Positions 18,167 through 25,727 of a DNA stretch of 64,000 bases are shown one piece after another. The DNA comes from Pelovirga terrestris (lineage in GTDB: Bacteria; Desulfobacterota; Desulfuromonadia; Desulfuromonadales; Geopsychrobacteraceae): positions 1 to 64,000 of the forward strand of contig NZ_JACWUN010000010.1 of assembly GCF_014773365.1 (NCBI RefSeq), written 5' to 3'. The notes beneath the pieces are model-generated. The model saw only the letters and a program-made list of their open reading frames with translations. It had not been told where the DNA came from and did no database searches. The translations under genes were made by a program, and so were the position numbers. The first letter of the stretch is position 1, and the number at the start of each line of letters is the position of its first letter.

Positions 18167-19639
18167 TTAAACGATTGCCTTCATTCCCTGCATGGCAGCA
18201 CGCAAGTGTTCACCGACTTCTTCGATCAGATGGCTGCGGATGTCGGCATTGATGACCACCAGAATCTGGTTGTCGACGTAGGTGTCCTTGACGTCAAGAC
18301 CCTTGCCGATCACATCGGTATCGACGCCGGCCATAAAATCCTTGAGTAATGGCACACAGGCGTGGGAGAAGAGATAGCAGCCGTACTCGGCGGTATCGGA
18401 AATGATCCGGTTCATTTCATAGAGTTTTTTACGGGCGATGGTGTTAGCAATCAGCGGCGTTTCATGCAGTGACTCATAGTAGGCTGATTCCGGTTCAATG
18501 CCGGCGGAAACCATCACTTCAAAGGCGAGTTCAACCCCGGCCTTAACCATGGCGACCATCAGAATCCCTTTATCGTAAAACTCCTGTTCGGAGATCTCAC
18601 CGGCGCCTTCGGTTTGCTCGAAGGCCGTTTTGCCGGTTTCTTCCCGCCAGGTCAGCAGTTTTTTATCATCGTTGGCCCAGTCTTCCATCATCGTGCGGGA
18701 GAAATCACCGGAGAGGATGTCGTCCATGTGTTTTTCAAACAGCGGCTCCAGAATGTCTTTTAATTCTTCAGCGAGGGCAAAAGCCTTGAATTTTGCCGGA
18801 TTGGACAACCTGTCCATCATCAGGGTGATGCCGCCATGCTTGAGGGACTCGGTGATGACCTCCCACCCTTTTTGAATCAGTTTGACGGCGTAGGGGGCGT
18901 CGATACCAGCTGCGACCATTTTGTCGAAACACAGCAGTGAACCGGCCTGGAGCATACCGCAGAGAATGGTCTGCTCGCCCATCAGATCTGATTTGACTTC
19001 AGCGATAAAAGAAGATTCGAGAACTCCGGCGCGGTCACCACCCTGGGCGGAACACAGAGCCTTGGCGATCTCAAGACCATCGCCGTTGGGATCGTTCTCG
19101 CCATGGACAGCGATCAGGGTCGGTACACCGAAACCACGCTTGTATTCCTCACGTACTTCGCTGCCAGGGCATTTAGGGGCGACCATGATGACGGTCAGGT
19201 CTTCCCGGATTTTCGTTCCTTCTTCAACGATATTAAAGCCGTGGGCGTAGCAGAAGGTCGCACCTTTTTTCATCAACGGCACCACGGTGTTGACGACATC
19301 GGTGTGTTGCTTGTCCGGTGCGAGGTTCATAACGATATCGGCGCTTGGCAGCATCTCTTCGTAAGCACCGACACTAAAGCCGTTGTCCGTGGCGTTTTGC
19401 CAGGATTGACGCTTCTGCTCAATGGCTTCCTTGCGCAGGGTGTAAGAAACATCCAGGCCACTGTCGCGCATGTTCAGCCCCTGGTTAAGCCCTTGGGCGC
19501 CACAGCCGACGATGACAATTTTTTTGTCTTTGGCGTAATTGCAGCCGTTGGCAAATTCCTCGGCATCCATGAACCGGCAGGTTGCGAGCTCCTGAAGTTG
19601 ACGACGAAACGGCAGTGAATTGAAGTAGTTTTGACCCAT
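18167..19639 (-). CDS. ilvC: Ketol-acid reductoisomerase (long, class II form)
   Basis: Converts acetolactate or acetohydroxybutyrate to the dihydroxy acids with NADPH, between IlvBN and IlvD. The protein has 490 residues, the long E. coli-like class II form with a duplicated C-terminal knotted domain. The start ATG 19639 ([19 protein letters not shown]) is chosen because E. coli IlvC begins in the same place and AGGAG lies 7 bases upstream; an earlier ATG adds 10 weakly supported residues. The NADPH Rossmann motif is [18 protein letters not shown] near residue 45. It is apart from ilvBN-ilvD (59-63 kb). Confidence 0.96.
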
Positions 19640-19903
19640 GTTTGTTCTCCTGGTACTGTTGGTTGACAAAAATTGACGAACTGATACAGCGATCTGTTAT
19701 CAAGAGATCGCCGGAAAAAATAACTCTGATACAATCCGCCACTCTATAACAGATTACTGTGTTGCGTAAAATGATTTATTGCACCCGGCTGCTACTCCTG
19801 ATAAGTGCTTTCGTGAGTGAAGCCAATAATTCTGGTGCACCTGCGAAAATTCCCTCCCGACTTGATATCGGTGACAAATCGAAGGTCGATAGATAGACCG
19901 AAA

Positions 19904-20131
19904 CTATTTCATCATCTGCTGCAGTTGCTCAACAATGTTAAATTCCGGCGGAAACTCGCCCGTCGCTTTTTTTGAATAAACGAGGGTGTCATCCACGCTG
20001 ATTTCAAAAACTCCACCGCTGGAGGGGATCATTTCTACCTGCACCGGCAGTGTTGCTTCAATTTTTGCCGCCAGACTGACAGCACGTGGCCGGTAGCCTC
20101 AGGAATTGCAATATTCGATGCTGATGTTCAT
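19904..20131 (-). CDS. SelW-like (Rdx family) selenoprotein, in-frame UGA = Sec
   Basis: Reading from ATG 20131 gives MNISIEYCNS, then TGA at 20101-20099, then GYRPRAVSLAAKIEATLPVQ and so on to a TAG at 19904: 75 residues in all. Reading the TGA as selenocysteine creates a CXXU motif (C8-N-S-U11), exactly where the SelT/SelW/SelH (Rdx) family has CXXC or CXXU. The later GGVFEISVDDTLVYSKKATG then FPPEF matches the thioredoxin-like Rdx fold. AGGAG lies 6 bases upstream. The stop codon of the DnaQ-like gene is 11 bp before this start, so they are co-transcribed. Automated ORF calling would miss or truncate this gene. Confidence 0.85.
20067..20101 (-). promoter_or_regulatory. Candidate bacterial SECIS hairpin
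   Basis: Directly after the UGA codon, CCGGCCA can pair with TGGCGG (one bulged G), leaving a 13-base loop CGTGCTGTCAGTC with exposed GU. The position and small apical loop match what SelB recognises in bacteria. Folding was done by eye only. Confidence 0.5.
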
Positions 20132-20142
20132 GCCTGTCTCCT

Positions 20143-20814
20143 TTATCCGAACAGATTGCCGGTTGTGTCAAGTTGGTTGTGAAGCGCGTCTTTGGCCGCT
20201 TTTCGTAACAGTTCTGCTACTTGTTCCTTGCTGGTGAGAGAAACTTTTTTCAGTAAATCAAAAGGTACAAAGGTGAATCCGTAATCCTGCATGATATCGT
20301 TATTGATAGCCAGCCACAGCTGTGCGGTCATCTCGGCATCAGCCAGGGCGCGATGAAATGTCAGCGCGGGCTTTAGTTTTTTGTACTGCACCAGGGTCCC
20401 CAGTTTATAATTGAGCGGGTCGGGGTAGATGCGTCGTGCCAACTGGAGGGTGCAGTTGAAGTTCGTTGGGCGGGGCTTGCCGTAGCGGGAGAGTTCCGCG
20501 TCGATAAACTTCTGGTCAAAAGCGGCATTATGGGCAACAAAAGGATAATGGCCGATAAAATCGATAAAGTCGGTCATGACTTGACGACTGCCCGGTGCGT
20601 CCTGGAGCATGCTGTTGGTGATCCCGGTCAGGGCTTCAATCTCCCGTGTTACCAGAAAGTCCGGGCGGATCAGGCGTTCAAAGTGTTCAATGATCTGATC
20701 TCCGCGCATTTTGATGGCGCCAATTTCAATGACCCGGTCACCTTTTTCAGGTAGCATACCGGTGGTTTCGACATCGACGACAATGACGGTTTCATGCTGA
20801 TAGGATGCTGGCAT
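20143..20814 (-). CDS. DnaQ-like 3'-5' exonuclease domain protein
   Basis: Protein of 223 residues of the DEDD exonuclease superfamily (as in DNA polymerase III epsilon). Exo I is VVDVETTG (D and E), Exo II is VAHNAAFDQKFIDAEL, and Exo III is HRALADAEMTAQL with the catalytic His and Asp. The start ATG 20814 (MPASYQHET) is preferred over 20844 because GAGGT lies 8 bases before it. It is not physically next to dnaE. It probably proofreads or trims nucleic acid; the specific partner is unknown. Followed closely by the SelW-like gene. Confidence 0.85.
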   Translation of the reverse strand: MPASYQHETVIVVDVETTGMLPEKGDRVIEIGAIKMRGDQIIEHFERLIRPDFLVTREIEALTGITNSMLQDAPGSRQVMTDFIDFIGHYPFVAHNAAFDQKFIDAELSRYGKPRPTNFNCTLQLARRIYPDPLNYKLGTLVQYKKLKPALTFHRALADAEMTAQLWLAINNDIMQDYGFTFVPFDLLKKVSLTSKEQVAELLRKAAKDALHNQLDTTGNLFG

Positions 20815-20985
20815 TAAGCGGTACCTCGTGGGGAAAAGCATCAACTTCTTGTGGTTTATTGTTGCTGAACCGTCCGGATCTTGTCAAACTCACCCGCACG
20901 TTGCCACTGTTGTTATGATGCGCAGGTGTTTTTCTGTTGCTGATGACAGCAGGTTATGGACGTATCATAAAGGACCGATATTATC

Positions 20986-22687: not shown

Positions 22688-22775
22688 GTCAACCGAAAGG
22701 GCAAAACCAGAGTAATCTGGTGACGCAAAGCCACGGATCCCGCCCAAGTGGGACCGCCGGGTTGCCGAAGCGGAC
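22688..22775 (+). ncRNA. GEMM-I cyclic dinucleotide riboswitch aptamer
   Basis: The class I signature is present: GGGCAAAACC, a short hairpin (CCAGAGTAATCTGG), the invariant GACGCAAAGCC, a second stem (GGATCCCGCCCAAGTGGGACC) split as GGATCCC and GTGGGACC, then CGGGTTGCCG closing P1. GEMM-I RNAs bind c-di-GMP; some in Geobacter relatives bind cyclic AMP-GMP. The base next to the conserved CAAA is G as in the c-di-GMP type, but ligand choice cannot be settled by eye. Downstream GCCCTTTTTTT (22789-22799) can pair with AAAGGGC (22696-22702) of the aptamer's 5' side. A full terminator follows at 22815, and the regulated gene starts at 23058. Confidence 0.85.
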
Positions 22776-22853: not shown

Positions 22854-23057
22854 CTTGCCACCCGCTTCTGCCAACAGGCTGGTGTCGGGATAGGTCGGAA
22901 TCTGCCGATTGATCATTATACCCTGGTTTGCCCTTCACCGCTTTTGTTCCATTTTTAAGGTAGAATGTAAGAGTGTGCGGTGTTTTTACGCTGTCAACAA
23001 ACTCCAACCACCTGCACTCTTCTTTTATGCGGGCAGGCTACGCTCCGGAGGTCGCAA

Positions 23058-25727
23058 ATGAAAAGAATATTGAGTTTTTACCTGTTGCTGGTCCTGTTTC
23101 TGATCATGGGCTGCAGTTCTGTTGCCTGGGCTAAAACCGTCACGCTGGCCTGGGATCCAAGCCCAAGCGCTGTAAGCGGTTATAAGGTATATTACCAAGT
23201 GGGCTCGGATAGCCTGTCGAAAACCGGAGAAGCGGGGACGGTCGTTGTTGATGTCGGCAGTGTGCTGACCTACAGTCTGTCACATCTCAACGATGCCGAG
23301 GATTACTACTTTGCGGTTACCGCCTATGATGCTAACGGCCAGGAAAGTGATTTCTCCAACCATGTTCACAGCCCGGCGGTGGTTGCGATCAATCACCCGC
23401 CGGTTCTTGCGCCCATCGGTACCAAAAGTGTTAATGAAGGTCAGGAACTGGCTTTTACTATTCTGGCGACTGATGCCGACGGCGATCCTTTAACCTATGG
23501 TGCCGCCAACCTGCCCGCTGGTGCAACATTTAATGCTACGACGCGCCAGTTTGTCTGGACCCCGAATTATAGTGGCTCGGAGAATATCCGGGTTTTTTCG
23601 GTGACCTTCAGTGTCAATGATGGTTCGGCCGAAGATACGGAACTGGTCACTATCAATGTCAACCCGGTCAATCGTCCCCCGGTTCTGAGGCCGATTGGGG
23701 CGCAGGAGCTGCTGGCCGGTGATAATTTCAATCTGATTATCAGTGCTACCGATCCTGATACCGCTCTCGGTCAGAATCTTACCTATAGTGCCGTCAATCT
23801 CCCCTCCGGTGCGGTTTTTCTTCCGGCTACGCGTTCTTTCAGCTGGCTTCCGGGCATACAGCAGGTTGGTACCTATCAGGTCACTTTTGTTGTTCATGAT
23901 GGGCGCTTGCAGGACAGTGAAGTTGTGCCATTTACCGTTGTTCGTGCTAATGAACCGCCGGTTCTAGCTGCCATCGGTACCCAATCCGTTCATGAAAATG
24001 CTCTGTTGCAATTCAGTGTGGCGGCGACCACCGAGAGTGCTAACTTTGTTTACCGTGTAAGCGGTCTACCGGCCGGTGCCTCCTTTGATACTGCCTCAAG
24101 AACCTTCAGCTGGACTCCCGACTATGATCAGGCCGGTAGTTTTATCGTAACCTTTGCCGTGACCGATGGTGTCGACACTGATTCTGAAGCGGTCACCATC
24201 ACGGTTCATAATACGAATCGTCCACCGGTGATTTCCGGCACACCGGATCCAACCGCCAGTGTTGACCGGACCTACGTGTTTGCCCCAGTGGCCAGTGATC
24301 CCGACGGTGATGACCTGAGTTATACCATCAGTGGTCAGCCATTTTGGGCTGAATTTAATAGTCAGACGGGCGTGTTAAGCGGTACGCCCATTGCTTCGGA
24401 TCTCGGCAGCAGGGCAACTATTGTTATTACCGTGGGTGACGGATCTCTGACGACATCTCTGCCGGCTTTTTCTATAGAGGTTGTGGCAGCTGCGGACGAT
24501 TCGGAGCCGAGCTATGTCGATGGCGAGATCGATTCGGACCGTGACGGCATCCCTGATGTGCGTGATGGCTTCCCTTTTGATCCGAACCGTACTGACTGGG
24601 TGATTTATGCCAGTGCCGGCACCGGCGGTTATATTGATCCGGCCGGAGAGGTGTCGGTTCTTTATGGTGGCACACAGCGCTTTGAGCTGATTCCGATGGC
24701 CGGCTATTACCTCAATGACCTGCTGGTCAATGGGATGTCGGTTCCCTTGCGGGATAACTATGAATTTGTCGACGTAGATTCGCATAATACCATTGAAGCG
24801 ATATTTTCAGAGATTCCTTCCGGTTTGAGTCAAAATCCTCTTGAGCCGGGATTAAAGGGTATCGAGCGGGTTGATGATGGGGATGACAGTAATAATCTGG
24901 TGGATGGTAAGCCCCGGCTCGACCTTGATTATCGTTTCCACGTCACCCTGCGGGAAGAGGACTCGCTGGACCAGTACCGGGTTTTTGCTGTGATCAACGG
25001 TTATCGCTATCTGCTGCAGCAGGATGCCGGCGTGCCGGCCAGTGGTGCCCGTTTCAGTATGACCACCAGGCTTGGTCCATTGCCGGCTCAGCGTTATTAC
25101 TTTGTCGTTGAAAACGCGGTAGGCACCCAATTGTGGCGCTATCCGGCAGTGGGTGACCTGCCCGGTCCGACGGTTGAACTTTTGTCCGGTCATAACATGG
25201 TGGGACTGGTCGGCAACCTGAACCCTTACGGTTTAACAACGACGGAAACCATCGGGGTCAGACAGGTTTATCGTTGGTCCCCGTCGGCAAAAAAAGAGGG
25301 TGCTTATGTCATGGTTGACAGTGGTGCACCGATAGCGTCGGGAGAAGGTTATCAATTGCGCCGGGCGACCAGCACCACCCTGCCCGATTTAAGTGCTTAC
25401 GGCGAACTGAGTGTCGACCTCTATGAGTTTGATGTGTTCCCGGGCTGGAATTTGATCGCTAACCCTTACGCCGGTAATGTGCCTCTGGAGAGGGTGCTGA
25501 TCCGTTCCGGCGATGCTGTTCCCATGGAGTGGCTTGCTGCAGCAACCCAGGATGTTGTGGTTGATGGCCTGCATTCGTATCTTGGTGATGATTGGGGGGG
25601 CGGCAACGAAGTCACCACCGCCGCTGGAACCAATAAGGCGATTCTGGTCCCGGGGATGGGCTATTGGATATACGTTAACCCTGTGAATCAGCCGGTGTCG
25701 CTGCTGATCCCCAGACCTTTGCGCTAA
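23058..25727 (+). CDS. Large secreted protein with Fn3 and cadherin/Ig-like repeats
   Basis: Extracellular protein of 889 residues. Signal peptide 1-25; IMGC at 16-19 might be a weak lipobox. A fibronectin type III domain is at 26-110. Four Ig/cadherin-like repeats begin with N-x-PPV at about 112, 205, 298 and 387; their He_PIG-type ends are GATFNATTRQFVWTPNYSG, AVFLPATRSFSWLP and similar. A thrombospondin-3-type Ca2+ loop (DSDRDGIPDVRDGFPFDPNR) lies near 490. The last 350 residues are unclassified. The ATG at 23058 has GGAGG 8 bases upstream. Control by the upstream GEMM-I aptamer suggests a surface or adhesion role in cyclic-dinucleotide lifestyle switching. Confidence 0.8.
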   Translation: MKRILSFYLLLVLFLIMGCSSVAWAKTVTLAWDPSPSAVSGYKVYYQVGSDSLSKTGEAGTVVVDVGSVLTYSLSHLNDAEDYYFAVTAYDANGQESDFSNHVHSPAVVAINHPPVLAPIGTKSVNEGQELAFTILATDADGDPLTYGAANLPAGATFNATTRQFVWTPNYSGSENIRVFSVTFSVNDGSAEDTELVTINVNPVNRPPVLRPIGAQELLAGDNFNLIISATDPDTALGQNLTYSAVNLPSGAVFLPATRSFSWLPGIQQVGTYQVTFVVHDGRLQDSEVVPFTVVRANEPPVLAAIGTQSVHENALLQFSVAATTESANFVYRVSGLPAGASFDTASRTFSWTPDYDQAGSFIVTFAVTDGVDTDSEAVTITVHNTNRPPVISGTPDPTASVDRTYVFAPVASDPDGDDLSYTISGQPFWAEFNSQTGVLSGTPIASDLGSRATIVITVGDGSLTTSLPAFSIEVVAAADDSEPSYVDGEIDSDRDGIPDVRDGFPFDPNRTDWVIYASAGTGGYIDPAGEVSVLYGGTQRFELIPMAGYYLNDLLVNGMSVPLRDNYEFVDVDSHNTIEAIFSEIPSGLSQNPLEPGLKGIERVDDGDDSNNLVDGKPRLDLDYRFHVTLREEDSLDQYRVFAVINGYRYLLQQDAGVPASGARFSMTTRLGPLPAQRYYFVVENAVGTQLWRYPAVGDLPGPTVELLSGHNMVGLVGNLNPYGLTTTETIGVRQVYRWSPSAKKEGAYVMVDSGAPIASGEGYQLRRATSTTLPDLSAYGELSVDLYEFDVFPGWNLIANPYAGNVPLERVLIRSGDAVPMEWLAAATQDVVVDGLHSYLGDDWGGGNEVTTAAGTNKAILVPGMGYWIYVNPVNQPVSLLIPRPLR

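Follow-up and report, generated by a model that had tools for sequence, protein, structure and literature searches.

Background

SelW-like selenoproteins of the Rdx family have been on record from bacteria for some two decades. They were detected in Geobacter sulfurreducens and Campylobacter jejuni in 2005 (PMC1242214), and by 2006 ten sequences had been counted, among them those of G. sulfurreducens and Desulfotalea psychrophila, and it was remarked that the family has hardly any Cys homologues, or none, in organisms that contain Sec (PMC1794560). No other selenoprotein family had as many sequences in the GOS marine data as the SelW-like one (427; PMC2398784), and in Epsilonproteobacteria the SelW genes were completely missed in annotation (PMC4607533). 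The proteins of G. sulfurreducens, D. psychrophila and C. jejuni are short Rdx proteins with a CXXU motif near the N terminus (PMC1794560, PMC1242214, PMC2398784, PMC4607533), as is the one described here. The known bacterial members, which occur in Sec-decoding bacteria including Deltaproteobacteria, also share with it a Sec encoded by UGA and a SECIS hairpin downstream of that codon. Unlike this bacterial arrangement, the eukaryotic SECIS sits in the 3'UTR.

Related structures are available as well. The SelW-related proteins of Agrobacterium (2fa8), Pseudomonas (2obk), Vibrio (2p0g) and Streptomyces (3dex) are of the Cys type, that is, they carry Cys in place of the Sec of the Pelovirga protein, and vertebrate SelW (2npb) and MIEN1 (2ljk) likewise belong to the Rdx family and have a thioredoxin-like fold.

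Results

The gene described here lies in a 64,000-nucleotide stretch of a Pelovirga terrestris contig (NZ_JACWUN010000010.1, positions 1 to 64,000), which we refer to as the window; its features are collected in Table 1. An earlier note on this DNA had placed an unannotated SelW-like selenoprotein with an in-frame UGA at 19904-20131. These coordinates hold, but the strand needed correcting to minus, and translation of the plus strand of the same interval gives no meaningful protein. On the minus strand, with the TGA read through, the product is MNISIEYCNSUGYRPRAVSLAAKIEATLPVQVEMIPSSGGVFEISVDDTLVYSKKATGEFPPEFNIVEQLQQMMK. The 64 further sense codons that had been claimed 3' of the TGA are found when counted on this strand, and ORF callers that treat TGA as a stop do indeed miss the gene, as the standard-code ORF list is without any gene here. 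The TGA also falls within a CXXU motif as had been stated, though not at its second position: because the motif reads C8-N-S-U11, U is the fourth residue, and the second of the two redox residues.

Table 1. Features of the selW-like locus and its surroundings (window coordinates)
Feature	Position	Strand	Remarks
ilvC (ketol-acid reductoisomerase)	18167..19669	-	downstream, neighbour only; Pfam KARI_N/KARI_C, synteny
41-codon ORF MIYCTRLLLLISAFVSEANNSGAPAKIPSRLDIGDKSKVDR	19771-19896	+	between ilvC and selW
selW-like selenoprotein gene	19904..20131	-	75 residues with U11, TAG stop included; ATG 20131..20129, TAG 19906..19904; translation and Pfam Rdx, NF041051 and TIGR02174 matches
SECIS-like hairpin GCTGTC-AGTCT-GGCGGC	20067..20083	-	starts 15 nt after the UGA; nt 19-35 from the T of TGA
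In-frame TGA, codon 11, very probably Sec	20099..20101	-	second redox residue of CXXU; codon conservation and full Sec machinery
Shine-Dalgarno AAAGGAGA	20137..20144	-	GGAG 6 nt 5' of the ATG; overlap with the stop codon of the exonuclease gene
DnaQ-like 3'-5' exonuclease gene (RNase_T)	20143..20844	-	upstream; Pfam PF00929, 2.2e-31
c-di-GMP-I riboswitch	22690-22769	+	Rfam over the window, 72.5 bits against a gathering cut-off of 35
Gene of 915-aa protein	22980-25727	+	fn3, He_PIG and cadherin-like domains

The product is a member of the Rdx / SelT-SelW-SelH family. With U handled as C by the profile, structure and alignment programs, residues 2-71 match Pfam Rdx (PF10262; E 1.7e-21, 76.6 bits against a cut-off of 22.6), and since this match spans the TGA at such an E-value a chance ORF can be ruled out. 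The alignment to SelW, SelT and SelH proteins that the earlier note had recommended likewise bears the assignment out, in that both NCBIfam SelT/SelW/SelH models are matched above their curated cut-offs, TIGR02174 clearly (68.4 bits against 34.2) and NF041051 barely (89.1 against 88). The CXXU motif, C8 to U11, lies at the end of the strand formed by residues 3-8 (E3-8) and is invariant across 29 aligned members (U shown as C). PDB sequence matches comprise Cys-type SelW-related proteins, MIEN1 and mouse SelW, and in the three printed alignments (2fa8, 2ljk and 3dex), which run through position 11, that position is Cys. An AlphaFold2 model built with 29 homologues (pLDDT 94.4) has the thioredoxin-like Rdx fold and superimposes on the crystal structures 2fa8, 2obk, 2p0g and 3dex with query TM scores of 0.82-0.92 and an rmsd of mostly 1.1-1.4 A, whereas vertebrate SelW and MIEN1 are more distant (query TM 0.67 and 0.78, respectively; 25-31% identity). 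Profile HMMs and predicted fold thus agree on the Rdx features that had been noticed after the TGA.

The genome of P. terrestris (3.1 Mb, 99.99% complete) contains the full machinery for Sec incorporation. SelA (583.7 bits against a cut-off of 268), SelB (365.8 against 242), SelD (353.5 against 125) and tRNA-Sec (69.7 against a gathering cut-off of 47) were all detected, so that the check for selA, selB, selC and selD, whose absence would have spoken against a selenoprotein, found all four. The selA, selB and selD genes form one cluster on contig C22. Because selD itself has an in-frame TGA (L018 1531-1533, context SSGUAAKIGPETL), we count SelD as a second probable selenoprotein of this genome, and a gene caller that stops at TGA therefore misannotates selD too. 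As a separate observation, the 7-base unit GGTAGTG is repeated perfectly 14.7 times between the stop of selB and the start of selD (L018 1364-1466), where it might act as a spacer of variable length within the cluster.

Bacterial SECIS elements are reported to lie shortly after the UGA and to carry an apical G (PMC2398784, PMC4607533), and the hairpin downstream of the Pelovirga UGA agrees with this description. The Rfam scan of the window gave no match to a SECIS family, its one hit being the c-di-GMP-I riboswitch of Table 1, and, folded singly, the window's own 50 nt reach no better energy than shuffles (z -0.43); because single-sequence fold energy is thus unremarkable, the case for the hairpin was built on comparison. 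The hairpin is conserved in 31 distinct sequences of the same order with the loops AGTCT, AGTTT or GGTCT, in which the apical G (20076) and U (20075), i.e. G26 and U27, are invariant. Across 26 of these sequences 91.0% of the cells are paired, as compared to 17-65% when the partner is slid, and the covariation score of the same 26 (0.247) exceeds those of all 500 shuffles, the double changes being confined to one of the six pairs (columns 21/33; CG, UA, AU). The hairpin region is also coding sequence, and the null was therefore taken from 2000 randomisations of synonymous codons. Pairing lies above this synonymous expectation, both in the paired fraction (0.90 versus a randomised mean of 0.73, sd 0.02, maximum 0.80) and in the number of rows that retain all five inner pairs (26 of 31 versus a mean of 5). 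Codon 19 is AGT wherever it encodes Ser; elsewhere in the gene Ser uses six codons. The earlier note had seen a small-loop hairpin directly after the TGA. Such a hairpin of 4 bp does exist in the Pelovirga sequence, but it is not conserved in the relatives and was rejected as the SECIS, the conserved hairpin beginning further downstream.

But could the UGA be decoded otherwise than as Sec, for instance if near-cognate suppression put Cys or Trp there and the hairpin did no more than stimulate readthrough? Cys is the residue that non-Sec homologues carry at position 11 and would be compatible with such a reading. However, the UGA occupies a catalytic Cys position in a genome that has selA, selB, selC, selD and a probable second selenoprotein gene, and the hairpin has both the place and the apical G of bacterial SECIS elements. 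We therefore consider decoding other than as Sec very unlikely; as judged from the sequence data, it is very probably Sec that is inserted at this codon.

Genome contigs were searched with peptide patterns taken from the Pelovirga protein, which returned at least 79 loci; among the matches listed these range from Desulfuromonadales to Pseudomonadales, Marinimicrobia, Verrucomicrobia and Gemmatimonadaceae. At the position of U11 in the alignment, 77 of 79 of the matches listed have TGA, one from Phaeobacter (L096) has TGT (Cys) and one (L098) is masked or unreadable, figures that do not represent an unbiased Sec/Cys ratio since the patterns derive from the Pelovirga protein and the loci are only those among the matches listed. 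Within the same order a match is present in 51 of 79 genomes (P. terrestris included), and each of the 51 has one or more matches that carry an in-frame TGA. The UGA thus aligns with the Sec or Cys of homologues, between conserved flanks. Similarity past the TGA, the lack of which had been named as grounds for rejecting the gene, is strong: identity of the post-TGA segment amounts to 93% and 81% in the two nearest relatives and to about 50% across phyla. This segment is under strong purifying selection, with a dN/dS of 0.067 (0.021/0.306) against the nearest and of 0.104 (0.124/1.196) against the next-nearest relative; ratios with more distant relatives are only rough because dS is saturated. 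A few gene-bearing relatives have no detected selA. The six of them that were examined are all fragmented or incomplete assemblies, and four (G017, G010, G033 and G040) have a tRNA-Sec above the cut-off, the other two being G042 and G043. In some relatives (G004, G005, G011 and G020) the SelW-like gene with UGA is present in two or three copies, of which some resemble the Pelovirga gene closely and others are more distant, which suggests paralogous subfamilies.

It might be argued that translation truly ends at the TGA, or that the TGA is a sequencing error, in a gene that has decayed or is a miscalled Cys-type Rdx gene, since under the standard code an in-frame TGA ends the ORF and since Cys homologues exist (the PDB relatives and the Phaeobacter locus with TGT). 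This reading is refuted by the conservation of the TGA codon in 77 of 79 independent loci of many phyla among the matches listed, and the post-TGA dN/dS of 0.07-0.10 and the full Sec machinery also speak against it, so that we give it practically no credence.

The exonuclease gene upstream and selW are separated by 11 nt and, given this spacing, are probably co-transcribed. The scan for promoters and terminators around selW gave signals hardly beyond what shuffles give. Purine-rich sites like the Shine-Dalgarno sequence of selW are found 5' of the start codons in most relatives. This good ribosome-binding site and the kept gene order described below both count in favour of the selenoprotein gene. 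A gene for a WYL-type regulator lies upstream in divergent orientation. The order exonuclease-selW-ilvC is kept in most close relatives, whereas in more distant members of the order neither the exonuclease gene nor ilvC is found beside selW within the DNA examined. It seems improbable that the kept order of exonuclease and selW reflects a functional link, for instance that SelW protects or regulates the exonuclease by redox exchange.

Two further observations were made in this part of the window. Judged by eye, the 41-codon ORF may encode a short peptide of secreted or lipoprotein-like type. Farther away, the c-di-GMP-I riboswitch is followed about 200 nt 3' by the gene of the 915-aa protein, which suggests a surface protein under c-di-GMP control.

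Discussion

Taken together, family membership, the Sec machinery and conservation past the TGA support the claim of a SelW-like selenoprotein with an in-frame UGA, and the locus is almost certainly a genuine gene of this kind, with UGA read as Sec, of a Desulfuromonadales-type bacterium. In this reading, SelB with Sec-tRNA would bind the conserved hairpin in the mRNA and the ribosome would insert Sec at UGA 11. The 75-residue product would then act as a small oxidoreductase with a thioredoxin fold; its Cys8 and Sec11 may form a reversible selenenylsulfide that would serve thiol-type redox exchange with a partner protein. We infer this redox role and the partner by analogy, from the family only.

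How, then, does the Pelovirga protein compare with the SelW-like proteins already described in bacteria? It differs from them only in sequence divergence and in local gene order, the gene standing behind a DnaQ-like exonuclease gene and before ilvC; we found no difference in kind. As an ordinary new member of the family, it adds no new kind of system. What the finding does is to correct the gene list of the Pelovirga genome by a real gene that is easily missed, and to show that SelW-like selenoproteins are common among the relatives of this organism, with a match in 51 of the 79 genomes of the order.
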